This document shows positions 1-24,047 of a stretch of 29,383 nucleotides of DNA, one piece after another; position 1 is the stretch's first letter, and the number at the start of each line of letters is the position of its first letter. The notes beneath the pieces were generated by a model. The model was not told the origin of the DNA. It did not search any database and was given only the letters and a program-made list of their open reading frames with translations. The translations under genes were made by a program, and so were the position numbers. The DNA is from a virus, in the IMG/VR virus record IMGVR_UViG_3300027752_001286, positions 1 to 29,383 of that record; one strand, 5' to 3'.

Positions 1-222
1 CCTCATTTTCTCGGCGACTTTAAGTTCATACATTTCTTCCCAGTACTCAAAGTCTTTTCTTGGTAAACGGTTTGCACAGTTTACCAATATGTCTTTTTGT
101 CGAGCATTATTTGCTCCGTTTTTCCATTCAAACTTTTCTTGCATTGTTCTTCCACATGCAGGACAGTATTCGCCATTATTATCACATTCGGAAATGCATG
201 GCGAAATTATTTTAGTCTCCAA
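1..222 (-). CDS. DUF1289-like small cysteine protein (3' end outside window)
   Basis: The reading frame stays open to the window edge, giving 74 residues without a stop. The N-terminus has the pattern SPCISxC...G..C..CGRTM..K..W (cysteines at residues 9, 13, 20 and 23), which matches the DUF1289 family (SPCxxxC...G.C.GCGRTxxEI..W) common in alpha- and gammaproteobacteria. No function is established for that family; the four cysteines suggest a metal or Fe-S site (inference). No ATG is available at the 5' end. I chose the TTG at 222 because an AGAGGAG Shine-Dalgarno lies about 9 nt upstream. The start overlaps the end of the ferredoxin gene by 11 nt, so the two are probably translationally coupled in the clamp loader-oxygenase-ferredoxin unit. 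The missing C-terminus prevents a length comparison. Confidence 0.68.
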
Positions 223-565
223 GACCGGGCTCCTCTGATCCGTACTTTTCCATTTTATCTTTAACACCAAACCACTCTTCGTGATCTTCAGGCGGGTCTC
301 TTGCCTCAGTAATGTTTGGCCACATATCAGACATTTTTTGATTATGAATAGTTATTGCTTCAATCCTGTTAGGATCCCACCCTGGTTCGTTATCACCAAT
401 AATAGCATCAACAGGACATTCAGGAACACATACACCACAGTCAATACATTCGTCTGGGTTAATTACTAGCATGTTTGCACCTTCGTAGAAACAATCTACA
501 GGGCATACACTAACACATGTCATGTGCTTACAATTAATACATTCTTCTGTTACTAAGTAGGTCAT
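212..565 (-). CDS. fdxA: 7Fe (3Fe-4S/4Fe-4S) ferredoxin, FdxA type
   Basis: Small soluble electron carrier of 117 residues. The cysteines fall at 9, 12, 17, 21, 25, 40, 43, 46 and 50. This is the Azotobacter FdI pattern shifted by one: C9/C17/C50 for the 3Fe-4S cluster, C21/C40/C43/C46 for the 4Fe-4S cluster, and C25 as the extra free cysteine. The C-terminal extension of about 55 residues with WPNIT, DPP and EW is typical of alphaproteobacterial FdxA proteins, which points to capture from such a host (inference). It follows the 2OG-Fe(II) oxygenase with a 4-nt overlap and precedes the DUF1289-like gene, so all are likely co-transcribed from the promoter at 2091-2119. The redox partner is unknown. 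Family assignment is very secure. Confidence 0.93.
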
Positions 566-2090: not shown

Positions 2091-2119
2091 ATTGTAGCAC
2101 TAAACTTGTCGTTTGTCAA
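2091..2119 (-). promoter_or_regulatory. Sigma70-type (early) promoter for the clamp-loader unit
   Basis: Read on the minus strand, a perfect -35 TTGACA (2114-2119) is followed by a 17-bp spacer and the -10 TACAAT (2091-2096). It overlaps the last codons of the GNAT-like gene and points at the clamp loader start at 2054, with a predicted leader of about 30 nt. It belongs to a set of five similar elements in the window. Confidence 0.85.
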
Positions 2120-2607
2120 GTGCTAATCTTGTATTCAAAGTTTTGTGTTTCAGCACTAATTTTCTTTAGTTTGGCACCGTTCTTAATATGAAAGTGTGTT
2201 GCCATTGGTGTTAGTGGCGATAGAGTAACTACTGTCTTAATCTTTTCGTTTGTTTTACAATGCTTTAATAGTTTATGTATTATCTCTTTACCTGCGCCAC
2301 GCTTACGTGACCATACAGTATATGCAACTGCGGTATTGAAATCATTTTTTAAACTAGCATTCTCACTCATAAGTTCTAGTTCTTTAACAGTAGTAGGTAT
2401 GTCATTGGTAAATGCTACGCACACAATACCTTCTATTGTGTCTTGATATTTTAGTCCGTAAATCTTACGACCATTGGCCTTACGCCATTCTAAACTTAGT
2501 TCTGGTCTCACTGGATCTTCTTCTACATTAATATTTTCTAGTTCTACAAGCTCTGTGCCCTTAACCCATTTGAAAAAATCTGCGTAGGTATCTTTGATTG
2601 ATTTCAT
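2116..2607 (-). CDS. Putative GNAT-family acetyltransferase
   Basis: 163 residues. The central segment AVAYTVWSRKRGAGKEIIHKLL (93-114) resembles GNAT motif A: a beta strand followed by R/Q-x-x-G-x-G/A (R101-K-R-G-A-G106), which binds the pyrophosphate of acetyl-CoA. The C-terminal half (ATHFHIKNGAKLKKI) resembles the motif B region, where a Phe-hydrophobic-xx-NGA/GF turn is typical. The N-terminal 40 residues are not recognised. The substrate is unknown. It follows the exonuclease directly (TAA immediately followed by ATG), so it is co-transcribed from the promoter at 3325-3353. The assignment rests on one good motif and overall layout and is moderate. Confidence 0.6.
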   Translation of the reverse strand: MKSIKDTYADFFKWVKGTELVELENINVEEDPVRPELSLEWRKANGRKIYGLKYQDTIEGIVCVAFTNDIPTTVKELELMSENASLKNDFNTAVAYTVWSRKRGAGKEIIHKLLKHCKTNEKIKTVVTLSPLTPMATHFHIKNGAKLKKISAETQNFEYKIST

Positions 2608-9633: not shown

Positions 9634-9641
9634 TATTTATT
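9634..9641 (-). promoter_or_regulatory. T4-like late promoter box AATAAATA
   Basis: Minus-strand AATAAATA, 23 nt upstream of the 244-residue gene, overlapping the stop of the giant gene by 2 nt, with CAGGAG before the ATG. The first base differs from the T/G seen elsewhere; cyanophage late boxes tolerate any base there. Confidence 0.68.
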
Positions 9642-12600
9642 ATAAGCGACCAACAACAACTTCTACAATACCTCTGCCGTCGTCGTCTTTTGTTCCTACA
9701 GCTTTACCAATAACAGTACCTAAACTAGGATCGTTATTAACAATAGCATAACCTGGTATTGCACTAGTTACAAGCATGTCGCCTTTAGCAACATGTCCAA
9801 TTACTTTACATGGTACACGCCCTGTTAGTGCTAATGGTACAACCGTGTCGCCTTCTAATTTATTGTTCATTAAGTATGCTGGATTTGTTGATACAACGCC
9901 TGCAACTTTACGATCACCCTTTATTGTACAAGCAGTAATTTCTTCATCACCGCCAAATACAACAACAGTGCCTGCTTCATATGCTTCATCGCCTATATAA
10001 TTCTCCGCCAAATCCGCATAGTTTGCTGACGAAGCTACAGTATTAAGTACGTCGGTTGCAGCGTTAAACGTAATTCCGCTACTATCTACTAAACCAGGTG
10101 TATTACCAGTATTGGCCCCAACCATTACAATATTATAAGTTCCACTAGGTGCCGCACTAACATTAAAGTTAGTTGCGTTTGTTGCATTTGTTGCAGACCC
10201 TACGCTTCCGCCGGTTGTAGCATATCCTTTACCTTCAACAAAGTTTTTAATAGCAGCTGCTGTTAGTAATGTTGTATCGTTGTCGGTAGTACTTGCACCA
10301 GCAGCGCCTACTTCAGTACTTGTTTGTATAGCTGCGGCAGACATCATAGCAACAGTTACATCTGGTATTCTAGCTGCAGCAAATGTACCACTGCCAATTT
10401 TAGAAGCTGCTAAACTTGGTATTCTTGCATCAGCAAATGAACCACTAGTAATTTTACTTGCACCTAAACTTGGTATTCTTGCATCAGCAAATGTACCACT
10501 GTCAACAGCACTTGCATCAAGTGTGTCCCATACAGGAGCTGCACCAGCAGAACCATTGCCAGTCATTGCTAAGAATTTTTGTGTTGCTACTGTATTTGCT
10601 GCTAGATAACTAGTTGCTCCTGTGCCGCTTTGATACGGTATTTGGTTAGCTGCACCATCTTTTAAATGCGTAGCTGATGCCGCGTTACCTGTTGTTGAAC
10701 CCGAACTTCCACTTACATTACCAGCGAAAGCACCTGTGAATGTAGTTCCTGTAAAGTTAGTTGAATATACGTGATTGAATCTAGTACCAGTAAGTCCAAT
10801 GTCTATTGTTCCACTAGGTACAATGTTTGCTGACGTTGTAATAGCATCACTAATACTCAATCGTTGTGCTGTAGTATCAGTTCCACTTGCTGTTAAGAAG
10901 TCAAATCTAGTTTTCTCACTGCCACCAGTAAGTGTAGTAGCTCTAACATTCATTAATGCTTTAGCACCTCCATCTACAGCGACAGTTGTATTGTCCATTT
11001 CAAATGCTAACGAACCTAACCAGTCATTAACTGCTGGGGAAGTTGTATCATGGAAGAAACTAATTTGATTAGTTGCACTTCCAGTTCCAGCTTCTGTGTT
11101 ACGGATATTAATTTTTGGAGTATCAAGCGTACTTGCAATAGTAAATGTATCAGTGCTTACATCACCTAAGTCAAAGTTTCCTTTAACAGTTAAGTCGCCG
11201 TCGAGTACAGTATTTCCTGCAACATCTAAATTAGTTCCAACGTATAGTTTCTTAGCAATGCCAACACCACCGTCAATTATTACTGACCCTGTTATTGAAC
11301 TTGATGCATCAGTTGTATTGTTAACAACAAGAGTACCATCAATATCTGTGTTACCATTAGATGCTGTTACATTGAAGTTGCCACCTATGTCAAAGTCGCT
11401 ACCAACAAATAGTTTTCCAGCAATACCAGCACCACCGGCAACAATTAATGCACCTGTTGCTGTACTTGTTGATGCTGTTGTTGCATTTGCATTTATTATG
11501 CCACTAACATTTAATACGCCAGTAACATCAACTTCATCGTCAATTGCTATTGCTGTAGTAAGAGTGTTTGCTCTTTGTACTTGTAATTCAATCTTACCAT
11601 CTTTACTTGCCGTCGCTACATCTGCTATTGTTGATTTTATAGCACCATATGTATGTAAAGTAGTAATTGGTCCTGCACTGTCGTTACTTCTAAAGTTAAT
11701 AGTACCAACACCGTCTGCGGTTGCAACACTGCTTGTTTTCTTAATAATGTCTAAAGTATAACCTGCTGCATCTGTATTAGTTCTTTGTAAGTCAAGATCG
11801 CTAACAATAACGGAGTTAACGGTTAATGTATCAGTTGCAGTATTACCAATTGTTGTGTTACCTTGTACCGATAACGCATTTTTAATTGTAGTTGTTCCAG
11901 ATAGTGCGGTTAGTACATCAACATTACCTGATCTTAATACAACACCTGCGCTATCTGCTAGTAATGCATTTTGACCATTAGCAACAATCGCTGTTTGACC
12001 AGCTGTTGTGTATGGTGAAACGCCGCCTAGTGCAATACCAGAACCAGTTGCTGTTAAGTCAGCTGGGTCTTGAATAAAGTTGGTATAGATCCAATCAACT
12101 GCTAAATGCGGTTTTTGGTTTGTAAGTGGAGTATCTTCACCTGCATTTTGTGCAAAAGCACTAGCAAAGCCGTTAATGCCTGAGCCTGCCGCTACAACTC
12201 TTACGCCAACATTACCAATGTCAACACTGGCAGTTGGAATTTCAATTATACTTTCATCAACTTCTACGCTAGTAGGTGTTACGCCTGATATGCTCATTGC
12301 TAAGTTTTCGTTTGGTGTGTAAACATCTAAGAATGTATCACCGCCTGCTGAACGTGTATCTAATGTTCTACGACTATCAACTAACAGTCCTTTAACATCA
12401 ATAAAGCCTTCAGTATTTGCTGATACAAACGTTAAGCCGTTTTGATCATTTGAATCAAGTGTGCGTACTAATTGATTACCTGCGCCAGCCTTTGTAATTT
12501 GTGTAGTGCCATAAACACCATCTGCTAGTTTAATTAGTGCTTCGCCTGATGTTGAAAACTGAGTTGCACTTACAATAGTTGCGGCACTTGCATGACTGTC

Positions 12601-15600
12601 AGCTGTAACACCTGCAAGTGTTCCTGTGCCAGGGAAAGTACCAGTAGCATTAATAACAACTACTTTGTTTTCACTTGTAACAGCGCCTTGTACGACAGCA
12701 TCAACACCACCTGAACTAACTGTTGCACCTGTTGCAACACTTACAAGTCCCTCAGTTTGAATAACCCAACCTGCAACTTCTGTAACTGTACTATTTGCAA
12801 AATCTTTATCTTGTATAGCACCACCTAAGTCAATGATTTGATCGAAGCTAACAGCATACGGTACACCATCTGCATTGTAAGCAGGATCACCTATGTCTCC
12901 TCTACCAATAACACTGTTCTCAGGTATGTCTTGAATCTTGTCAAACGTTATACCTCTATCTTTAACATTTACAAATCCTGTTTTCTCTATTGTAGTAATA
13001 GTTCTAGTTGAATTTACAGGAGTTCCTTTAATAGTTGATGTTTGTTGTACAGCGTTTGCACTTCCTGGTAAACTATATGTTGTTACAGGTGTAACATATG
13101 TTGTAGTAGCACCACCTGTAGCAAATACATCGCTTGTTCTAATTTTAAGCGTAGTAGTATTAATAACTTTGTCAACATACCCAGTAACTGCTCCTTGTGT
13201 AATAATGTCATTAACATTAGCACTAATTGTTCCGCTGAATATAAAGATTTGATCTTCAGCAAACGCATCTGCACTAAACGCTGCAATACCTTTATTTGCT
13301 TGACTAGTTCTTCTTCCACTAGTTGTAAAGTCTTCAAACAGATCACTATTGGCTAACAATGGTGCTTTAGTCATCAACAGTTTTTGTTGTTGAATATCTG
13401 CTGAGGTATTAACATCAGCATCTAGTAAACTTTCTGCTTGATACTGTAAGTTAATACTTGTAGCATCTTCGGATCTAGTTACTGTTAAGTTAATATCACT
13501 ACGTGTTGCATCTCCTGGACTACCAACTTTGCTTTCGCTTGCGTTAGCAACTTCAATCATTGGATATACAGCAAGTCCGTCTCTACCTTGTGTAGTATTT
13601 CTTGACACATTACCATTTGATATAGTTTCTGCTTGGAAGTCTATTGGATCTCCACTTGAGGCGTCTGCAATAAGTGCGGTACTAGTTACTAATGCTGCTG
13701 TTGCAACTATAGTTTCACTACCACCTGGGTTATTAACAAGCTCAATAGCAGTACCGTTAAATACGCCTGTTACTTCTCTAAGCATAATTTGAGTAGCTGT
13801 TGTTTTACCTGATCCAACTACTGTTTGTGGATGTAATACATAACCTTGTGCGCCCGTACTTGGCTGTCTTAATAGCTGTCCTCTTACAGCAACAGTTCCA
13901 GTAGCATTTAATGCAACCATTGTTAATGGTAACACTGTGTAAGTTAGTACCTGAACATTAAGTCCTGATGCTACGTCTGTACTGTTTTCACCATTATCAA
14001 ATTTAAACGAATCACTAATGTCAACAATACGTCCTGCACTATTTGAATCTTGTCCAAAAATAACATCGTTTACACTAAACATAGTGCCAGCAACGTATTT
14101 GATATAAACTTTCTTTTGTCCTGTTAGTACAAGTAAGTCACTTCTACCGTTTGCATTATTAAAATCTGTTTGATATAAACTTACATTGCGTAGGTCTTCA
14201 AATTCATCGTTAGCAAAGATTCTGTTATCAACATATTCTTTAGTTGCTGCATCAGTATCTGCTATAGGACGTTTGAGTAAAGTAATTCTACCATTCGTCA
14301 TGTTCAGTGTATGTGTGGTTTCTCCACCACTTGTTACTGGTGTCAGTTGCGGATTAGTTGCACTCATTACTGTTGTAAGTGCTGCAGGATCTACTACGTT
14401 AAATTCGTCAAATCCTAAACGTCTGTTTATGTAATCTACTACAGCAACTTCAGTAGGAACATTTTTAAGTTCTGCTGTTGCCTGTGTAAAGCTACTTGTA
14501 AACTTACTAATAATCTCGCCGTCTTTAAATCCTAGTCCGTCAAGTCCTGAGATATTAATTTGTGCTGTAAACGATATAGTACCAGTACCTTGGTCAACTG
14601 TAAAGAACTTACCAACTCTAAAGAATCCATCTTCGTCTGTTGATGCAAAGAACACACGCCCTTTGTTTCTTTCCCATACTTGGGCTTTGGTTGCCGTTGC
14701 GTCACTTGTTACAATCGCTGTTTTTGCAACTGCAGGTTGACCAAAGATAATGTTTGGATAGTTAGATGTATTAAATCCACCTGTACCAATATTACTAAAG
14801 TCATGTCCTGTTGCTCTACATAGTGAAATATTAACAGTAATTTCTGCACCTTCACCTGACGGAACACCAATTGCAATGTTTACGTTGTCTGTTTCGTTAC
14901 CAACACTTAATGAATCAGCAATACCTGTTGTAGGAGCTGCTTCGTCGGCATCGTAATACTTGTCACTTGCTGGAGTACGATCAATTTCTAAGTATGGGAA
15001 CCCAGTTATAGCTGAATTAGGCTCGCCAGTTTCTCTAGTTCCTATAGCACCTATTGATGTACCTGCCCCATCGTGATATGCAAGTACTTTGTGTATTCTG
15101 TCTTTCCATGCAAATATCATATCTGCATTTTGAATTCTTACTGTAGACTCACTGCCTAGTGCTGGAATAGCAATATATCTATCACCCGGTGTGCCACCAA
15201 ACGATTCTATTTTACCAAGAGTTGTAAGGTAACTTAGTTTTACTACACCGCCTGTGGCTAATGCACCAATACTAGCAAACGTACCGTCACCTGCTGTGTC
15301 TCGTTCAACATTGCCGCCGCCTACAGTATAATCAGTTCCGTTCCAATTTTTAACATAAAGTACAGTAGCACCTGCAGCAACTGCTTTAGTTATTGTACCT
15401 GTTGCTGACCCTTGTCTAACAATAGACCCTACACTTATAGGACCTGCTAATACTACGTTTAATGTTAGCTTAACCTGTGATTTGTAGAAACCGTAATCTA
15501 CTCTTTGTCTAATGTACTCATAGTTACTATCAAATGTAAGTATGTTTTGATCAGTGGGTAATTGTGTTTCACCTAAACCGTCAAATGTTGTTATTGGTGT

Positions 15601-18600
15601 TGTATCAAAGTTAATAGAACGATAAGTGTTCTCAGGTTGTTCTTCAAACACAACTGCTGTAGATGGTCTAATCGGAACAGTCTGTACTCCGTCTAAAATA
15701 AACTTTGCTCTAGACCTAAGGTTAACTGCGTCACCTGCTCCTAATGGACTTGATAATCCGCCTGTGCTTACTGACTCATCGTTAGTTGAATTGGAGAATG
15801 ATAGTTTCCATACCGCTCCTTGTTCACCTATTAACACGTTGCCACCACTGCCTGTTAAAGTAGCTTTACCTGATCTTGCTGTGTATGACCCTGCCCATGA
15901 TGTGCCGTCTACTGTTGTTGTTAATGCTGAATCACTGTATAGTGCAACATAGCGTTTATCGTTTGTAGTACCGCCAGTAGTTGTACTAACCTTAGCATAG
16001 TAAGTACCGTTTAAATCTGTTACTCCTAATGCATCAACAATCGTAATAGGATCTTCGTCTACAAAGTTATGTCCTATTGTTTCGATTATAACAGGATTTG
16101 CTTTTGTAACACCAATAATAGTTTTACGACCTGCTTTATCTAAATTACTTTCAATTGCTGTAATAGTTCTGCCTGTAGTTGTACCATTAATGTATATCGT
16201 ATCACCTAACGCAAACTGATTTCTGTTTTCTGGAAGTGTTACATATAGCTTATCATTGTTAGTAGCAGCGTTAATTGGTCTAGATACTCTACCCAGGGCC
16301 ACTGTTGCCGATTGACTTGTTCCAGCTGTAAGAGTTGCTCTTGCATTGTACGCAATGCCAGTAAGAGTGCCACTTAGTGTAAGTTTAACTTCGTTGACTC
16401 CAGGAATACCGTCTGCTGAAAACGCATCAGTTACAGTTACAACTTCAAATCTACTAAGACTACTAGCTTCGCCGCCTGCATCTTGTATTGTAGCTGTATT
16501 ACCTAAGTTGCCTGTGTTATATGATGAACCGTTTAACGTTGTTGTAAGAGCTGCATCAGTATAAAGTGTTAGTGTACCTGTTGATGGATTGGTTCCTACA
16601 TAACGTATACCGTCTAGTCCTGGATTAGCGCCGCCGCCACTAGTAGGAATATTACTGCTTTCTACTAGCACTCTTTGTCCTGCAATAAAGCCATGTGCTG
16701 CTGCGTTAACTGTTACTGGATTAGATGCGCCGATACTAGCAATACCTATTTTTTTATTGTAAAGTACGTCAACTTCGCCTTCTGGTAATGGAGCAAAGTC
16801 AGTATCAGTTACGTATAGGAATGTTTGTAATGCGTTAGCGTTAGCACTTACTCCTGAGTTAACATATACTTTAGCTGTTTGTGAAGTATCAAATGCTAAC
16901 GAACCTGTTTGTGCAACTTCGTTCGGGTCCCCACCTGCAGCAACTAGTCCAAAGTTACCATAAGCATTAGAACCGTTTAACGATCTAATCTCAGAACCGT
17001 TGTTTGCATAATAAGCTGCGTGGCAATAGTACGTAAACATACTAACCATTTCTGATATACCGTTGTTAGTACATAATAGACCGTAACCCAAATCGTTAAC
17101 TTGCGTAAAGTCATTACCAAGCATAGATCTGTTACCAGCTGTTTGTAATACGATTGGAAAGTTTTCACCGCCAATCCAACCTTGTCCTTCGCCGTTGGCA
17201 TCTGGATTTGAATTCTTATCAAGAATAAGTTCTGCTGTACCGTTAGTTGGGCTATAATTCCTAATAGCATTAACTTGATAACGTACACCATTTACATAAA
17301 ATGGTGCTGGTAGTTGTGGACGTCTTGAAAACAATCCAAGCCCTACTCCGTTGCCGCCAACTAGTTTTGAATCTCTTCTACTTCTTACAAATATTTCAAA
17401 GGGTGAGTTAGAACCTGCACCTGAAATATTATCAGTGATCTCTAACGGCATGTTACTAACAAAACCATCAACAAACATACCACCTCTAAATGCTTGCTTG
17501 TTTATTGATTGTGAGAAACTTGAACCTGTTTGTATGTATGGTGACTTAGTAAGTACCTGGCCGTCTGGGTCAAGTACACACATAAATCCGCCATGTCCTT
17601 GCACAGTCATATTACGTAAGATAGTAGCATCGTTCATTAAGAAGACGTCCATATCTTTGTTGTCTTTAGGTGGATTGTATTCTGTATTGAATGCAAACAC
17701 AATAATATTCAACAGTCCGGAAACAATAGTACTTGTGCCTACCTCAGCAAGTTGTGCAGTCGTTACTGTAATATCCCAAGCTGATGCCGCTTGTCTTGCA
17801 CTTGGCACACTTGGAGTACCTACTGGTGAACCTGATGCACCTAATATTGCTTGTGCAATGTTACCAATTTCTAGTATTGAAGCTGACGTTATAATTTCTT
17901 GCCCTACTTCTACAGCGCCTGCATAATATTTACCCTGGATCTCAAGTGACTGATCAACAAGACCTTTGTCTAAGTCAAACGCTAATGCATCAACAATAAG
18001 ACCTAAGTCTCTTGCACATTTTGGTCCATAAGTAAATGCTACTGCACTTGACACAGTTGCCGGAACACTATTTGCTCCTTTACTTACACCGCTAACACTT
18101 AATGCGCCTGTGGTATTAAATATTCCACTTGGTCCTACAATAGTAACTGTATTATCTGTGCTATCGCTTTTTACTTTACCAGTTACGTTTGTACCTGCTT
18201 GAATAACTGTGTCGCCTCTGGTGAAAGTTACGTTACCAGTTAGTGTTAAATCAACTTGTGTATAATCACCAAAACCACCGTTATTTAAGTTAGCTTGTGA
18301 ACTTTCAGCTAAAAATAATAAAACTTCTTGTACAATCGCATCTCTGTTTTTCGTTAACAAACTAACAGCATTTGTATAACCACCTGGGTTAACAACAGTG
18401 CCTGCTTGTGTATTAACTGGTCTTCTTGGATCAAGTGCATAATGATAACCAAAGTTTGATGGTCTTGCATATTGCACTGGCGTACCAGTTAAGTATGTAC
18501 CTGCTTGTACGGCATTGTTAATAGAAATATTGTTACTTACTACAGTATCAAACGCTGTTACGTCAGCATATCCGTTACCAGTTTCGCTTGGTGGTACACC

Positions 18601-21285
18601 GTTATTTGTAACAGCATCGTACCCGTCATAATACTGAACTACAATGCTTGTAGAGTTAGTTGCTTTGTTTTGCACATACGCTATTGCTGTACCAGCTGAA
18701 ACAGTTTGTGATATTTTATCACCTACAGCAACAGTTACCGCTTGTGTTAAAGTTAGTGTTATTTCGCCTTCAATTTCTACACTGTGATTGTGTAGTGTCA
18801 TGTTATCGAAATAATTGTCTCTATGGAAATATTGTCCTGCCCACTTAGATTGTGACACACGCTTTCTTGGACGAATGTGTGTACGTCTAAACTCGTCACC
18901 TTTAACGGAAACGTTAGCTGGAACACGTAATGGATAGTCTTCGTAGAATATACCAGTTTCAAGGAACACTGTAATATTTTGTTGACTTACTTTGTTACCA
19001 AACTCAAGTACATCACCTGCTTCATAAGTTGGGTCAGCTTCAGTAGCAACACCTGGATCTGATCTAGCAATAAACTCTACTGGTTCTTCAAGTATAAGTT
19101 CTATTTGGTCATGTGCTGAACCACCTAGTTCGTCACCTCTATAATAGTTTACAATTCTTGATACAGCACCTGACTTAGTACCTGTAATAACTTTACCTGG
19201 TATTAAGTCTGTATTTGATGCTTGCCCTTGGAATACGTTTCCGTTTCCACCATTGTCAAGTTCAATAACATATACTGAACCTTCTTGTAATGTTGGAGCA
19301 CTGTCTACTCCGTTATCAATAATATTTCCAATGATATCAAATAGGTCGCCTACTCTTGCAATAGCATCTGCTGGAGCAGCTGTACCTGGACTAACTACGT
19401 TTTGTATAACGTCAGTATTGTATACACCAGGGTTACCAGAACCACCTTGCCATTGAAGGTTAGTTAAGATATACTGTCTAGTAATTTCTTCAACTTTGTC
19501 AATGGTTGCTTTTGTTTGTGCTTTCTGCGGACCAATAGCAATAGCACCACTGGCATTACTATAGTATCTTAAACCTGCTTGCCTTGAAAGTTTGTTAGCA
19601 TTGGTACCGCTGATAACATCAAGTTTTAAACTTTCATAAATTAACCCAACATCACGCTTACACGTAGCTTCTTTGTATGTAAAGTTTTTCCATTTAATTA
19701 ACTCTGCTTCTGCAGGAACGTTTGGGTCTAGTGTAACAGCTGCATTTGCTAATGTAATTTGAGCTGTTATCCATGCAATAACTTCTTCTTGGACAAACTT
19801 TTTGTTGTTGTCCATAAGTGCTTTAAAGTTAGCAGTTGTTTGTGCATTGTATGTAGCAGGAACTTTAAATCCTAATGTATTTGTGTTTCCACTTTTTACA
19901 AATGTAGGAGTAAGTGTACCAGAGTTATCAACTGTGATAGTCTGCATATACGGACCAGGCTCTAACCTGCTTGTTTCTATAATTTCTTCTGCTTTTCTAA
20001 GTGCAGCATTTACTGTACGATATGCATAACTTAATGCTCTACCTTCTTTACCAGCAGGAGTATTAACTTGGTTATCGTCACCTTGTAAACTAACATACAA
20101 GTTTACATTACTTGCATAACTTGTGTTGTCTACATAAAATTTAGTAGCGGCTTGTAAATCTTCTAAGCCAGTTGTAATATTTGCTAAGTCTCCAGGATGC
20201 TTATCAAGGTAAAGCGTACCGTCCATTTGGTCGCCTTGACGTCTAAGTGCTGCTTCTCTTGGCATTGCTTCGTTAGCAAGGAACTTACCGTCTAGTATAT
20301 CTGGTTGATATTCTGCATCAACTAATGTTTGTGTACCTGAACCGGTACCTGCTTGGAAACTAATTTTTCTATTTGCTGTAGCTGCTTTAGCTGCGTCTGC
20401 ATTTTCATAAAATTCTAATGTTGTTGCACTTGCAACTCTAACATAAATTGGGTTTAAGTTTTTAAGTGGTTGAGCTACCGCACTTGATGCCGGAGTTGCC
20501 GTTGCACTTGTTCCTGTAGTTTCGTATCTAAATGGTAATCCGTTTGCACCACTATCAAGTCCGTGTCCTGCCGGAACAGTAATTAAAGTCCCGTCAACTG
20601 TTCTACCAGTAATATTAGCAACACTAGCTGTAAAACTATTAATTGTAAATGAGTAGTCTGCTGTAAAGATTTGATCTTCAGTACGTACTCTAATTTGTGC
20701 GCCAGTACCACCACCTGTTGATTTTAAGTAGTTAGTATCTGCAAAGCCTTTTGATATTGCAACACTGTCAGTTGTAAACCCAGCGCCGTTATGTGCGGCA
20801 TTAAGTACAGACAGTTTAGTTTCAATGTCAGTAAGACTTGTTGGCATGCCTGCAACAATATTTCCAGATGCATTTATGCCGCCACCTGTTGAATTAATTT
20901 TAGGTGTTTCATCTTCTTCAAGTTTGCCACCTGCCGCTGTTACAACAATGTGTCCACCTGACGTTAAACTAAATGTAACAGTATCATCGATAGACGCATC
21001 TAAGAAACTGTTACTAACTAATTTTCTAAATTCTAACTTACTACCTTCAGCAGCAACATCAACTACTGGAAGTACAGGTCTTGAAAATGTACTTGGATTG
21101 GCTTGTAATTGGGCTAGTGTCGGAGTATCACTAAATTCAGTAAATGATATTGAACCACCTTGTCCAAATACAGCATATAGTTGAGTAAAATTATCATTTA
21201 CTTTTCTAAACGCTTCTCTGATACTATCGCCAGTACCGTCATTACCTTCTACACCGATGTTGATGTTTTGTTTACCTTGTGCCAT
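9640..21285 (-). CDS. Giant multidomain tail-fibre protein, 3881 residues
   Basis: The N-terminus (NDGTGDSIREAFRKVNDNFTQL, 15-36) is shared with neighbouring fibre proteins. Residues about 385-430 (YVSLQGDDNQ ... YRTVNAALRKAEEII) look like the start of a pectate-lyase-type right-handed beta-helix, resumed at about 780-840 (ANVSVKGDE ... DNMTLHNHS) and 1230-1470 (ATILRNMTVQGHGG, GGMFVDGFVSNMPLEIT). Two copies of a helical module (CKRDVGLIYESLKLD; CARDLGLIVDALAFD) interrupt it. Then come beta modules with H-G-hx..LNG..Y, GxxIVxGGxGIAxKLFVG repeats (about 3275-3350), ADARIPSLxASKIxSG repeats (about 3598-3645) and a C-terminal domain (about 3755-3881: ADLAENY, VAGVVSTNP, LTGRVPCKVIGHV) like phage intramolecular-chaperone domains. 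The start has GGAGC (21294-21298) inside the end of the Fe-S carrier gene. Virion adhesin is the likely role. Confidence 0.9.
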   Translation of the reverse strand: MAQGKQNINIGVEGNDGTGDSIREAFRKVNDNFTQLYAVFGQGGSISFTEFSDTPTLAQLQANPSTFSRPVLPVVDVAAEGSKLEFRKLVSNSFLDASIDDTVTFSLTSGGHIVVTAAGGKLEEDETPKINSTGGGINASGNIVAGMPTSLTDIETKLSVLNAAHNGAGFTTDSVAISKGFADTNYLKSTGGGTGAQIRVRTEDQIFTADYSFTINSFTASVANITGRTVDGTLITVPAGHGLDSGANGLPFRYETTGTSATATPASSAVAQPLKNLNPIYVRVASATTLEFYENADAAKAATANRKISFQAGTGSGTQTLVDAEYQPDILDGKFLANEAMPREAALRRQGDQMDGTLYLDKHPGDLANITTGLEDLQAATKFYVDNTSYASNVNLYVSLQGDDNQVNTPAGKEGRALSYAYRTVNAALRKAEEIIETSRLEPGPYMQTITVDNSGTLTPTFVKSGNTNTLGFKVPATYNAQTTANFKALMDNNKKFVQEEVIAWITAQITLANAAVTLDPNVPAEAELIKWKNFTYKEATCKRDVGLIYESLKLDVISGTNANKLSRQAGLRYYSNASGAIAIGPQKAQTKATIDKVEEITRQYILTNLQWQGGSGNPGVYNTDVIQNVVSPGTAAPADAIARVGDLFDIIGNIIDNGVDSAPTLQEGSVYVIELDNGGNGNVFQGQASNTDLIPGKVITGTKSGAVSRIVNYYRGDELGGSAHDQIELILEEPVEFIARSDPGVATEADPTYEAGDVLEFGNKVSQQNITVFLETGIFYEDYPLRVPANVSVKGDEFRRTHIRPRKRVSQSKWAGQYFHRDNYFDNMTLHNHSVEIEGEITLTLTQAVTVAVGDKISQTVSAGTAIAYVQNKATNSTSIVVQYYDGYDAVTNNGVPPSETGNGYADVTAFDTVVSNNISINNAVQAGTYLTGTPVQYARPSNFGYHYALDPRRPVNTQAGTVVNPGGYTNAVSLLTKNRDAIVQEVLLFLAESSQANLNNGGFGDYTQVDLTLTGNVTFTRGDTVIQAGTNVTGKVKSDSTDNTVTIVGPSGIFNTTGALSVSGVSKGANSVPATVSSAVAFTYGPKCARDLGLIVDALAFDLDKGLVDQSLEIQGKYYAGAVEVGQEIITSASILEIGNIAQAILGASGSPVGTPSVPSARQAASAWDITVTTAQLAEVGTSTIVSGLLNIIVFAFNTEYNPPKDNKDMDVFLMNDATILRNMTVQGHGGFMCVLDPDGQVLTKSPYIQTGSSFSQSINKQAFRGGMFVDGFVSNMPLEITDNISGAGSNSPFEIFVRSRRDSKLVGGNGVGLGLFSRRPQLPAPFYVNGVRYQVNAIRNYSPTNGTAELILDKNSNPDANGEGQGWIGGENFPIVLQTAGNRSMLGNDFTQVNDLGYGLLCTNNGISEMVSMFTYYCHAAYYANNGSEIRSLNGSNAYGNFGLVAAGGDPNEVAQTGSLAFDTSQTAKVYVNSGVSANANALQTFLYVTDTDFAPLPEGEVDVLYNKKIGIASIGASNPVTVNAAAHGFIAGQRVLVESSNIPTSGGGANPGLDGIRYVGTNPSTGTLTLYTDAALTTTLNGSSYNTGNLGNTATIQDAGGEASSLSRFEVVTVTDAFSADGIPGVNEVKLTLSGTLTGIAYNARATLTAGTSQSATVALGRVSRPINAATNNDKLYVTLPENRNQFALGDTIYINGTTTGRTITAIESNLDKAGRKTIIGVTKANPVIIETIGHNFVDEDPITIVDALGVTDLNGTYYAKVSTTTGGTTNDKRYVALYSDSALTTTVDGTSWAGSYTARSGKATLTGSGGNVLIGEQGAVWKLSFSNSTNDESVSTGGLSSPLGAGDAVNLRSRAKFILDGVQTVPIRPSTAVVFEEQPENTYRSINFDTTPITTFDGLGETQLPTDQNILTFDSNYEYIRQRVDYGFYKSQVKLTLNVVLAGPISVGSIVRQGSATGTITKAVAAGATVLYVKNWNGTDYTVGGGNVERDTAGDGTFASIGALATGGVVKLSYLTTLGKIESFGGTPGDRYIAIPALGSESTVRIQNADMIFAWKDRIHKVLAYHDGAGTSIGAIGTRETGEPNSAITGFPYLEIDRTPASDKYYDADEAAPTTGIADSLSVGNETDNVNIAIGVPSGEGAEITVNISLCRATGHDFSNIGTGGFNTSNYPNIIFGQPAVAKTAIVTSDATATKAQVWERNKGRVFFASTDEDGFFRVGKFFTVDQGTGTISFTAQINISGLDGLGFKDGEIISKFTSSFTQATAELKNVPTEVAVVDYINRRLGFDEFNVVDPAALTTVMSATNPQLTPVTSGGETTHTLNMTNGRITLLKRPIADTDAATKEYVDNRIFANDEFEDLRNVSLYQTDFNNANGRSDLLVLTGQKKVYIKYVAGTMFSVNDVIFGQDSNSAGRIVDISDSFKFDNGENSTDVASGLNVQVLTYTVLPLTMVALNATGTVAVRGQLLRQPSTGAQGYVLHPQTVVGSGKTTATQIMLREVTGVFNGTAIELVNNPGGSETIVATAALVTSTALIADASSGDPIDFQAETISNGNVSRNTTQGRDGLAVYPMIEVANASESKVGSPGDATRSDINLTVTRSEDATSINLQYQAESLLDADVNTSADIQQQKLLMTKAPLLANSDLFEDFTTSGRRTSQANKGIAAFSADAFAEDQIFIFSGTISANVNDIITQGAVTGYVDKVINTTTLKIRTSDVFATGGATTTYVTPVTTYSLPGSANAVQQTSTIKGTPVNSTRTITTIEKTGFVNVKDRGITFDKIQDIPENSVIGRGDIGDPAYNADGVPYAVSFDQIIDLGGAIQDKDFANSTVTEVAGWVIQTEGLVSVATGATVSSGGVDAVVQGAVTSENKVVVINATGTFPGTGTLAGVTADSHASAATIVSATQFSTSGEALIKLADGVYGTTQITKAGAGNQLVRTLDSNDQNGLTFVSANTEGFIDVKGLLVDSRRTLDTRSAGGDTFLDVYTPNENLAMSISGVTPTSVEVDESIIEIPTASVDIGNVGVRVVAAGSGINGFASAFAQNAGEDTPLTNQKPHLAVDWIYTNFIQDPADLTATGSGIALGGVSPYTTAGQTAIVANGQNALLADSAGVVLRSGNVDVLTALSGTTTIKNALSVQGNTTIGNTATDTLTVNSVIVSDLDLQRTNTDAAGYTLDIIKKTSSVATADGVGTINFRSNDSAGPITTLHTYGAIKSTIADVATASKDGKIELQVQRANTLTTAIAIDDEVDVTGVLNVSGIINANATTASTSTATGALIVAGGAGIAGKLFVGSDFDIGGNFNVTASNGNTDIDGTLVVNNTTDASSSITGSVIIDGGVGIAKKLYVGTNLDVAGNTVLDGDLTVKGNFDLGDVSTDTFTIASTLDTPKINIRNTEAGTGSATNQISFFHDTTSPAVNDWLGSLAFEMDNTTVAVDGGAKALMNVRATTLTGGSEKTRFDFLTASGTDTTAQRLSISDAITTSANIVPSGTIDIGLTGTRFNHVYSTNFTGTTFTGAFAGNVSGSSGSTTGNAASATHLKDGAANQIPYQSGTGATSYLAANTVATQKFLAMTGNGSAGAAPVWDTLDASAVDSGTFADARIPSLGASKITSGSFADARIPSLAASKIGSGTFAAARIPDVTVAMMSAAAIQTSTEVGAAGASTTDNDTTLLTAAAIKNFVEGKGYATTGGSVGSATNATNATNFNVSAAPSGTYNIVMVGANTGNTPGLVDSSGITFNAATDVLNTVASSANYADLAENYIGDEAYEAGTVVVFGGDEEITACTIKGDRKVAGVVSTNPAYLMNNKLEGDTVVPLALTGRVPCKVIGHVAKGDMLVTSAIPGYAIVNNDPSLGTVIGKAVGTKDDDGRGIVEVVVGRL
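10387..10500 (-). repeat. Two-plus tandem 54-bp repeats encoding an 18-residue motif in the giant fibre
   Basis: Units 10387-10440 and 10441-10494 are near-identical over their 3' two thirds, with a degenerate third copy at about 10345-10386 and the start of the next unit at 10495. Each encodes SG(T/S)FADARIPSLxASKIx. The same peptide motif is scattered through marine phage fibre proteins, probably as one coil of a beta-helix. Confidence 0.8.
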
Positions 21286-21669
21286 TTATGTGAGCTCCGT
21301 TATTAATTCATTATTTTTTTCGACAGCTTCCATGTCGAAGTTTACGCTAATTCCACAACCACATGCACTACTTGCATTGGGGTTACTAATTACAAATTGC
21401 GTTTGAAATACGTCTGTTTCGTAGTCTATTGTGCAATCAAACAAATACATGTGTGCCATAGCGTTTATAACTAAGTTTCCTGTACCTGTATTAATGATTT
21501 CATCATTTGGTTCAACACTTTCTTTTGCTATCATACCCCAATCATATTCAAATCCAGCACATCCACCACCTTTAAGGCTTAAATGTACTCCAAAATGCTC
21601 TGTATTAGCCGCGCAAAGCCCGTTAATCTTATTTTTAGCATCTTCTGTGAGTGTAATAGGTAAAATCAT
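21286..21669 (-). CDS. A-type Fe-S cluster carrier (IscA/ErpA/HesB family)
   Basis: 127 residues, normal for the family. The three ligand cysteines are present: C37 in GGGCAGFEYDW and C103-x-C105 in SSACGCGISVNF; the strand LVINAMAHMYLFDCTIDYE corresponds to the conserved LVVDxxSxxYLxGxxIDY. A-type carriers hold or hand on an Fe-S cluster. The gene is driven by a late box (21686-21693) with AAGGAG (21675-21680), and the Shine-Dalgarno of the giant fibre lies in its last codons, so the two are co-transcribed and probably coupled. Late timing and a fibre neighbour are unlike a housekeeping biogenesis gene. HesB-like genes are known in T4-like cyanophages. The recipient is unknown. Confidence 0.92.
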   Translation of the reverse strand: MILPITLTEDAKNKINGLCAANTEHFGVHLSLKGGGCAGFEYDWGMIAKESVEPNDEIINTGTGNLVINAMAHMYLFDCTIDYETDVFQTQFVISNPNASSACGCGISVNFDMEAVEKNNELITELT

Positions 21670-21685: not shown

Positions 21686-21693
21686 TATTTATC
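21686..21693 (-). promoter_or_regulatory. T4-like late promoter box GATAAATA
   Basis: Minus-strand GATAAATA, 16 nt before the Fe-S carrier ATG. The short leader leaves just enough room for the AAGGAG Shine-Dalgarno. It should drive both the carrier and the 11.6-kb giant fibre gene. Confidence 0.8.
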
Positions 21694-22043: not shown

Positions 22044-22211
22044 TTAGTCTTCCTTCTTCCAGATAGTCCATGCCCCATATGCAATAGCGGCATAGGCTAC
22101 TATACTTGCAATTGGTTTAAAAATTAAAAATGCAATGCCAGCACCAATTAGTACAGCACCGTCTAAAGTTGTACGTTCTTTTAAACGTGTTTTAATGAAT
22201 TTCTCTATCAT
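22044..22211 (-). CDS. Small membrane protein, 55 residues
   Basis: Begins MIEKFIKTRLKERTTLDGAV and ends YGAWTIWKKED. There is a basic N-terminal segment, then two hydrophobic stretches (about 18-31, DGAVLIGAGIAFLIF, and 33-49, PIASIVAYAAIAYGAWT) with a K-P turn, so it could span the membrane once or twice. The ATG overlaps the stop of the preceding 60-residue gene (ATGA), so the two are translated together from the late promoter at 22412-22419. Proteins of this shape recur in T4-like cyanophages as far as I recall, with no known role; a holin-like or virion-associated membrane role is only a guess. Confidence 0.78.
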   Translation of the reverse strand: MIEKFIKTRLKERTTLDGAVLIGAGIAFLIFKPIASIVAYAAIAYGAWTIWKKED

Positions 22212-22390
22212 GATGTTTTTGCTCCGCGGAATGAGTTAGTGTTTGACATATCTCTTTTTTCGTCTTGTAGTTTTTCTGATTTAATCACTGGAACAATAGT
22301 GCGTATTCCAACGCCGTTTTGACCGTCTGCACGTAATCCTGTGATTCTATCAAGTTTTAAACTTTTTGTTCCAACCATTGTATTAGCCAT
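22208..22390 (-). CDS. Small late protein, 60 residues, function unknown
   Basis: A polar, Gly/Asn/Ser-rich protein (GTKSLKLDRITGLRADGQNG ... SNTNSFRGAKTS) with no cysteine, hydrophobic helix or recognised motif. It has a CAGGAG Shine-Dalgarno and sits 21 nt downstream of a perfect TATAAATA late box in a divergent arrangement with the plus-strand gene at 22456. Its stop overlaps the start of the 55-residue membrane protein. Late expression suggests a minor virion or assembly protein, which is inference from regulation only. Confidence 0.74.
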   Translation of the reverse strand: MANTMVGTKSLKLDRITGLRADGQNGVGIRTIVPVIKSEKLQDEKRDMSNTNSFRGAKTS

Positions 22391-22411
22391 TTCTAGTATC
22401 TCCTGTACTAG

Positions 22412-22423
22412 TATTTATAAATA
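22412..22423. promoter_or_regulatory. Palindromic divergent late promoter TATTTATAAATA
   Basis: A 12-bp perfect palindrome holding two overlapping T4 late boxes: TATAAATA on the plus strand (22416-22423, ahead of the gene at 22456) and TATAAATA on the minus strand (22412-22419, ahead of the gene at 22390). The four central bases are shared, so both directions cannot be melted by two polymerases at once. Confidence 0.85.
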
Positions 22424-22455
22424 AATGTACCAGAACTATATATTATGGAGTAATT

Positions 22456-22725
22456 ATGTTAAAATGGCTTAAAGCCTTTTTTGGTTTAGACATGAAAGAA
22501 GGAAGTGTAGCATCAGTTACTCAAGCCGTCTTTGGTGAAGTAGAAACTAAAAAAGCAACAGTAAAGAAAACACCAGCTAAGAAAGCAACAGTTAAGAAAG
22601 CTGAGCTTACTAAGTTAACCAAAGCTAAACTCGAAGAAAAGGGTAGAGAATTTGGTATTGAAATTGACAAGAGAAAGAAGAAGGAAGAGCTAGTTAAAGA
22701 AGTATTTAACGCTTCTAAGATCTAG
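22456..22725 (+). CDS. Lysine/alanine-rich basic protein with SAP/HeH-like C-terminus, 89 residues
   Basis: The plus-strand gene of the divergent late pair. The N-terminus (MLKWLKAFFGL) is an amphipathic or membrane-active helix. The middle (about 32-50) is a histone-H1-like repeat (KKATVKKTPAKKATVKKA). The C-terminal 38 residues (LTKLTKAKLEEKGREFGIEI then KRKKKEELVKEVF) have the helix-extended-helix pattern of SAP/HeH DNA-binding motifs (Lxxx-L-K-x-x-G-xx-xx-T-K-x-x-L). A TATGGAG Shine-Dalgarno precedes the ATG. A late DNA-binding protein, perhaps acting on packaged DNA or the host nucleoid, is a reasonable but unproven reading. Its 3' end overlaps the end of the convergent 99-residue gene by 11 nt. 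Confidence 0.76.
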   Translation: MLKWLKAFFGLDMKEGSVASVTQAVFGEVETKKATVKKTPAKKATVKKAELTKLTKAKLEEKGREFGIEIDKRKKKEELVKEVFNASKI

Positions 22726-23014: not shown

Positions 23015-24047
23015 AATCTTTCCTTGCTTCGTTATATTTATACAAGTCAATACTTGCAAGATTTTTCATCTTAGACTCACACATGATATCTGCATAGTCT
23101 AAAAATTCTAATGCCCAGTTGTTTACATCGTCATTCGGATACCAATCACTGTGCGCTCGTAGTTTGCCTTTCTTATAGCCTGCTTCTAATAATGCAGGCA
23201 TGTCAGGCAATGTGTCGTGTGCATAGCCTTCTGGTAGTTGTTCTGTTCTACTATAGCTGTAATGTATTGCAGGTCGAACACCACGCCAGCTATCAATTAC
23301 GCGAGCAAATCTATCGTCGTTGGGTTGTATGTATTCACCTTCACGGCACCAGTGATGGTGTATGTCGAGAACGAGTGCGCAGTCGTTAACAAGTTCGAGA
23401 CTGTCTGCAATTCCCCATTTATTTTCGTCATTTTCGATCGTAAGTACATTTCGCGCTTCTGGCGAGAGTCGCTTGATTGCATTCCGTATGCCGGTAGGAC
23501 CGTTTCGACCCGATATGTGGACATTGCACTTAAAGTCTTGGAAGGTCTTGCCGTATCCCATCCAGCGTATGACATCGGTGTGATATTCAAATTCTTCTAT
23601 GCTCCTATCTACAATTTCGGGGTTGTCGCTTGCAAGTACAGTAAATTGGCCTGGGTGCATCGATAGTCGGACATCGAGGGCTCTTGCCGTGGCACCGACT
23701 TTTGCGAACTCTCGTTCTGCATACGTAACAACGTCAGGACGCTTCCAAAAATAACTCCAATCACGCTGGGTATAAACAGGAAGTACATCACTGCCCAATC
23801 GTACCATTCTAAGTCCTGCAGGAAGTGATCCAACATATTCTATTAACCTTTTGTATGCGGCAATGTTGTGTACCATAATGTCCCACAAGCGTTGCTCGGC
23901 TACATCAACAGTTTGTCTGTTAAGCCATTGTACTGTTGTGCTACGAGTATTTAGCGGCCGCTGAATTTCTTCTAGTACTTTTTTCTTCTGCGATTGATCC
24001 GAGTCCATAAACTTACATGCAAAGCCTATACGTTTAAGTGCGTTCAT
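22959..24047 (-). CDS. uvsE: UV-damage endonuclease (UVDE/UvsE family)
   Basis: 362-residue TIM-barrel endonuclease that nicks DNA 5' of UV photoproducts with a divalent-metal site. Visible family motifs are the N-terminal IGFACKF, MVRLGSDVLP (81-90), LSMHPGQFTVL (129-138, metal His 131), CNVHISGRNG (174-183, H177), LTIENDE (202-208, metal Glu), LVLDIHHHWC (225-234), HYSYSR and RAHSDWY (metal His region). Length and order match the family. Excision repair by UVDE is an alternative to the T4 DenV glycosylase and occurs in marine T4-like phages. The gene has its own near-perfect promoter (24085-24113) inside the phosphomannomutase gene, which it overlaps by 14 nt. Confidence 0.95.
   Translation of the reverse strand: MNALKRIGFACKFMDSDQSQKKKVLEEIQRPLNTRSTTVQWLNRQTVDVAEQRLWDIMVHNIAAYKRLIEYVGSLPAGLRMVRLGSDVLPVYTQRDWSYFWKRPDVVTYAEREFAKVGATARALDVRLSMHPGQFTVLASDNPEIVDRSIEEFEYHTDVIRWMGYGKTFQDFKCNVHISGRNGPTGIRNAIKRLSPEARNVLTIENDENKWGIADSLELVNDCALVLDIHHHWCREGEYIQPNDDRFARVIDSWRGVRPAIHYSYSRTEQLPEGYAHDTLPDMPALLEAGYKKGKLRAHSDWYPNDDVNNWALEFLDYADIMCESKMKNLASIDLYKYNEARKDYELFKHNVWEQKRELETI
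23035..23042 (-). promoter_or_regulatory. T4-like late promoter box TATAAATA inside uvsE
   Basis: Perfect minus-strand TATAAATA within the last quarter of uvsE, 20 nt before the ATG of the 99-residue gene. It uncouples that late gene from early uvsE transcription. Confidence 0.82.

Follow-up and report, generated by a model that had tools for sequence, protein, structure and literature searches.

The IMG/VR virus record IMGVR_UViG_3300027752_001286 is a 29-kb contig that carries a T4-type (gp44-type) clamp loader and other T4-like genes; at 55% identity, the nearest clamp loaders are those of Pseudomonas jumbo phages, Paride among them. The whole stretch, 29,383 nucleotides (nt) in length, is referred to here as the window. 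The element under study is a 12-base pair (bp) palindrome, TATTTATAAATA, which lies between divergent genes and, judging from its sequence and setting, is very likely a bidirectional T4-type late promoter. The features of the locus are listed below, with protein lengths in amino acids (aa); the predicted transcription start (+1) was placed 6 nt past the end of each box.

22412..22423, no strand assigned: palindromic double late box TATTTATAAATA (putative), with the inner TATA (22416-22419) common to both boxes
22416..22423, plus strand: putative late box TATAAATA of the 89-aa gene; box end 33 nt from ATG 22456, predicted +1 at A22429
22412..22419, minus strand: putative late box TATAAATA of the 60/55-aa pair; box end 22 nt from ATG 22390, predicted +1 at A22406
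22398..22450, no strand assigned: predicted core of the promoter, bounded by the two ribosome-binding sites and holding an outer GTAC...GTAC dyad (22405-22408, 22427-22430)
22456..22725, plus strand: P0001, an 89-aa lysine-rich protein with weak matches to phage DNA-binding families
22208..22390, minus strand: P0002, a 60-aa protein, its gene followed by the 55-aa gene
22044..22211, minus strand: P0003, a 55-aa predicted membrane protein, its gene overlapping the end of the P0002 gene

An earlier note on this DNA had described one perfect T4 late box per strand with TATA in common, and the sequence at 22412-22423 is exactly so. The 12-mer is present in a single copy in the window, and none of 100 dinucleotide-preserving shuffles contains any. 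Both of the divergent genes that flank it (starts at 22390 on the minus strand and 22456 on the plus strand) have a Shine-Dalgarno (SD) sequence, and the predicted transcription starts, A22406 (minus) and A22429 (plus), are 23 bp apart, with ACAGGAGATACTAGAA and ACCAGAACTATATATTATGGAGTAATT as the leaders. The locus thereby has the composition of a T4-type late promoter: TATAAATA with a variable first base, a predicted start 6 nt on, a short leader and a ribosome-binding site. No sigma-70-like site was found overlapping the 12-mer, in keeping with the lack of a -35 element in this promoter type, and a sigma-70 promoter reading was rejected on that ground. The arrangement is also that of bidirectional promoters whose two directions share a -10 element, in which overlapping boxes on both strands give starts 10-27 bp apart; the distance is 23 bp here, and 23-27 bp is implied in relatives. 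Because TATAAATA alone is not over-represented in the window (3 observed versus 3.6 expected), its count is uninformative, and the evidential weight lies instead in the placement of the 12-mer between divergent pairs of SD sequences and open reading frames (ORFs).

Half-boxes and their genes in related loci

The 12-mer is unchanged in 12 related contigs (L014-L025). Over the 53 bp between the ribosome-binding sites, the window is identical to L017, L018 and L021 at 51-52 positions (96-98%), compared with 50-67% at third codon positions in the three genes that flank it (Fisher P ~5e-8 to 1e-10). The outer GTAC...GTAC dyad is confined to the close clade; in L051 and L095 the dyad and the 60-aa gene are absent and the flanking bases have changed, though the 12-mer is kept. 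At another marine locus (L062, L063 and L082), the 12-mer is constant and the first gene on one side, encoding a 55-aa-type membrane protein, may be present or absent.

A wider comparison comes from an unbiased IMG/VR scan with the family of a neighboring 99-aa gene, a choice independent of the promoter, with the best 80 of 178 relatives retained. In 49 loci, window included, an 89-aa-type gene diverges from one of the 60-aa or 55-aa type, and 44 of these loci contain exact inverted hexamers (TATTTA-N(0-4)-TAAATA), with a spacing k of 0 in 13 loci, 1 in 19, 2 in 10, and 3 and 4 in one locus each. Among the remaining divergent loci, one mismatch is seen in each of L266, L258, L262 and L264; L235, where the gene start was miscalled, has k=3 by eye. 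While the hexamer spacing varies between 0 and 4 bp, the distance from each box to its start codon stays near 20-33 nt.

Loci that seem to lack one of the genes are informative about the separate halves. Where the 89-aa-type gene is present and its partner was undetected, the TAAATA box is kept in 14 of 14 loci and the exact inverted box in none of the 14, one of them (L204) retaining a remnant of the inverted box with one mismatch. Conversely, the double box is missing in 15 of the 18 loci in which the 89-aa-type gene was undetected; in most of these 15, the partner genes sit directly behind the 99-aa gene, in the same direction and with no box. The double box is present in L252, where the rightward gene was missed by the family model, and L212 and L213 keep TATTTA, making an undetected gene probable. 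In L212 and L213, upstream of 3521, the two late boxes seemingly overlap in the opposite register (GATAAGTATTTACA), so that they stand face to face and not back to back.

In these sequences, each half-box goes with the gene it appears to serve, and since each half co-varies with its gene in relatives, both halves of the palindrome very probably function. The earlier note's proposal, a divergent late promoter whose central bases are shared, is supported by the conservation and by this comparative evidence for use both ways. The conservation in relatives on which that proposal had been staked holds as well, in that the palindrome is not reduced to one box in close relatives, and distant relatives lose a half only where the partner gene was not found.

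Late boxes and other genes of the window

Judging from sequence and position, this marine T4-like lineage has NATAAATA as its late box. The octamer has also been published as the late box of cyanophage S-PM2 (PMC2984593), and the first base of the late box is generally variable in T4-like phages (PMC1524935). The window contains 8 [ACGT]ATAAATA octamers, mostly 17-33 nt ahead of gene starts, tail genes included, and the plus box of the 12-mer is the only one of the 8 on the plus strand. Three related contigs also show enrichment of [ACGT]ATAAATA before genes, structural ones among them, with little or none for control octamers. Two putative single boxes are listed below.

23035..23042, minus strand: third TATAAATA, putative single late box before the ATG (23014) of the convergent 99-aa gene, in the same relative place in relatives
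21686..21693, minus strand: GATAAATA, putative single late box of the iron-sulfur (Fe-S) assembly-like gene 21286-21669, upstream of the 3881-aa tail-fibre-like gene

Automatic gene calling missed the 99-aa gene that follows the box at 23042; GATAAATA is found in relatives too.

Several observations weigh against assigning these boxes to T4-type late transcription. The lineage's contigs, which are fragmentary, gave no match to models of gp55 (phrog_234) and gp45 (phrog_223), a gp55 relative being found only in Paride, the nearest isolate by clamp loader; of gp55, gp45 and the clamp loader, the window itself has the last alone. In addition, the compared loci are related, so the counts of half-boxes and genes overstate the number of independent events.

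Other genes of the window were noted in passing. The 3881-aa tail-fibre-like protein is encoded by a single ORF (9640-21285, minus strand) that makes up 40% of the window, and known tail families match its C-terminus only. The Fe-S cluster assembly-like protein (PF01521) at 21286-21669 (minus strand) is phage-encoded, a ferredoxin-like protein with Fer4 domains is encoded at 212-565 (minus strand), and the product of 2116-2607 (minus strand) weakly matches the malonyl-CoA decarboxylase C-terminal domain and GNAT acetyltransferases. A search of 50,697 phage records gave no relative for P0002, and the sole blastn match of the 12-mer region is 52 bp within a staphylococcal phage lysin gene.

Two-way initiation and its alternatives

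The late box begins with TATA, which is its own reverse complement, and a 12-bp palindrome can therefore give each strand a complete gp55-type -10 box. Late RNA polymerase would dock either way round and open the same AT-rich DNA, starting leftward near 22406 to transcribe the 60/55-aa pair or rightward near 22429 to transcribe the 89-aa gene. There would be room for one polymerase at once, and both genes would be transcribed in the course of infection. The arrangement may save space, as the double box costs four bases beyond a single box. Mutual exclusion of polymerases at the instant of binding is plausible from steric geometry, because the boxes overlap.

A symmetric box could be directionless in itself, with the gene picked by the orientation of the sliding clamp, which would be dictated by the replicating strand responsible for its loading. 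Such gating would act ideally on a box that is palindromic and lacks a -35 element, and the polarity of late activation in T4 is set by the nicked strand (PMC2988020). However, replicating phage DNA probably often carries clamps in both orientations, so that the effect would average out, and gp45 is not among the proteins identified in the contigs of the lineage; this clamp-gated switch is possible, if rather unlikely. A broader version, in which palindromic late promoters are direction-neutral readers of clamp orientation that let the replicated strand choose the operon and have evolved repeatedly for that purpose, is doubtful.

It is improbable that sharing a box puts the two transcription units in competition and thereby sets their protein ratio, as the earlier note had it when it stated that the overlap fixes stoichiometry. 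Overlapping boxes cannot both hold polymerase, and steric exclusion has been stated for bidirectional promoters of Escherichia coli (PMC12825309). Those promoters, however, fire too rarely to compete at basal level, and the loss of one RNA leaves the other unchanged (PMC12825309). At the homologous locus the spacing is free to vary by 0-4 bp, and the leaders and ribosome-binding sites on the two sides are unlike, leaving the claim of a fixed stoichiometry unsupported.

A role for the palindrome as an operator or replication element for a dimeric protein, in place of a promoter, is very improbable. The outer GTAC...GTAC dyad around the 12-mer in the close clade would suit such a site, and the T4 protein DsbA binds AT-rich sites that overlap two late promoters (PMC2988020). 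A hexamer spacing of 0-4 bp, though, is unlike a rigid dimer site, and the start-codon distances remain near 20-33 nt. The outer dyad as an operator was rejected, given that L051 and L095 keep the 12-mer without it. Least probable of all is that one half is the promoter and the other a chance by-product of AT-rich sequence: TATA is self-complementary, the DNA is 62% AT and a second half takes just four extra bases, but no shuffle yielded the 12-mer, both halves are conserved alongside both genes, the inverted half is absent if the partner gene was not found, and ORFs flank the 12-mer on both sides far more often than a control palindrome (94 of 109 loci versus 0 of 10). The marine locus and its relatives offer a test bed in which clamp orientation and polymerase competition can be compared as the direction setter.

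Recurrence and comparison with known systems

The 12-mer lies between divergent ribosome-binding sites at 108 IMG/VR loci, versus 10 for a composition-matched palindrome. The loci with ORFs on both sides (the 94 given above, window included among the 109) fall into at least 34 gene-pair classes, and the flanking genes include those for baseplate hub, head-tail adaptor, tail tube, head-closure, endolysin, baseplate wedge and the protease inhibitor Inh. The k=1 and k=2 forms are found at 102 and 100 IMG/VR loci, in only 7 and 14 pair classes, with the present locus dominating. The exact shared-TATA form has been arrived at by the largest number of unrelated gene pairs, an expected outcome given that it leaves both octamers at consensus.

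Phage T4 itself has a single TATTTATAAATA, at 116450-116461, flanked by late genes 26 (start 116428, minus strand) and 51 (start 116479, plus strand). As in the window, an identical 12-mer occurs in one copy between divergent late genes with predicted starts 23 bp apart; unlike in the window, the genes belong to the baseplate hub and the GTAC flanks are lacking. A 1989 paper in Virology by Scarlato and colleagues reportedly dealt with overlapping promoters from which the T4 base plate gene cluster is transcribed divergently. A search of one literature library for overlapping or bidirectional T4 late promoters found no paper there. The earlier note's author knew of no described case of this exact overlap, which at the sequence level is wrong, as the same 12-mer is present at T4 26/51 and in many other phages. 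In a 160-kb virus contig (L033), the 12-mer separates inh-like from UvsW-like helicase genes, which are the second such pair to be known from T4.

The late promoter at T4 26/51, with its overlapping divergent boxes, is thus no curiosity, the exact 12-mer being found between dozens of unrelated gene pairs, and the gain and loss of half-boxes with their genes at one marine locus is evidence, of a comparative kind, that a symmetric late box is used both ways. S-PM2 and similar T4-like cyanophages have the same octamer, with the same variable first base and the same position relative to gene starts, but their late boxes have been described as one-directional (PMC2984593). A parallel for two-way use exists in bacteria, where promoters that fire in both directions from one shared -10 element form an established class (Warman, Grainger and colleagues; PMC12825309). 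There, too, a symmetric -10 is read both ways, starts are commonly 18, 10 or 23 bp apart, and one polymerase excludes the other. Those promoters, however, employ the housekeeping sigma factor, -35 elements and host regulators (PMC12825309), whereas the element here is an 8-bp late box without a -35.
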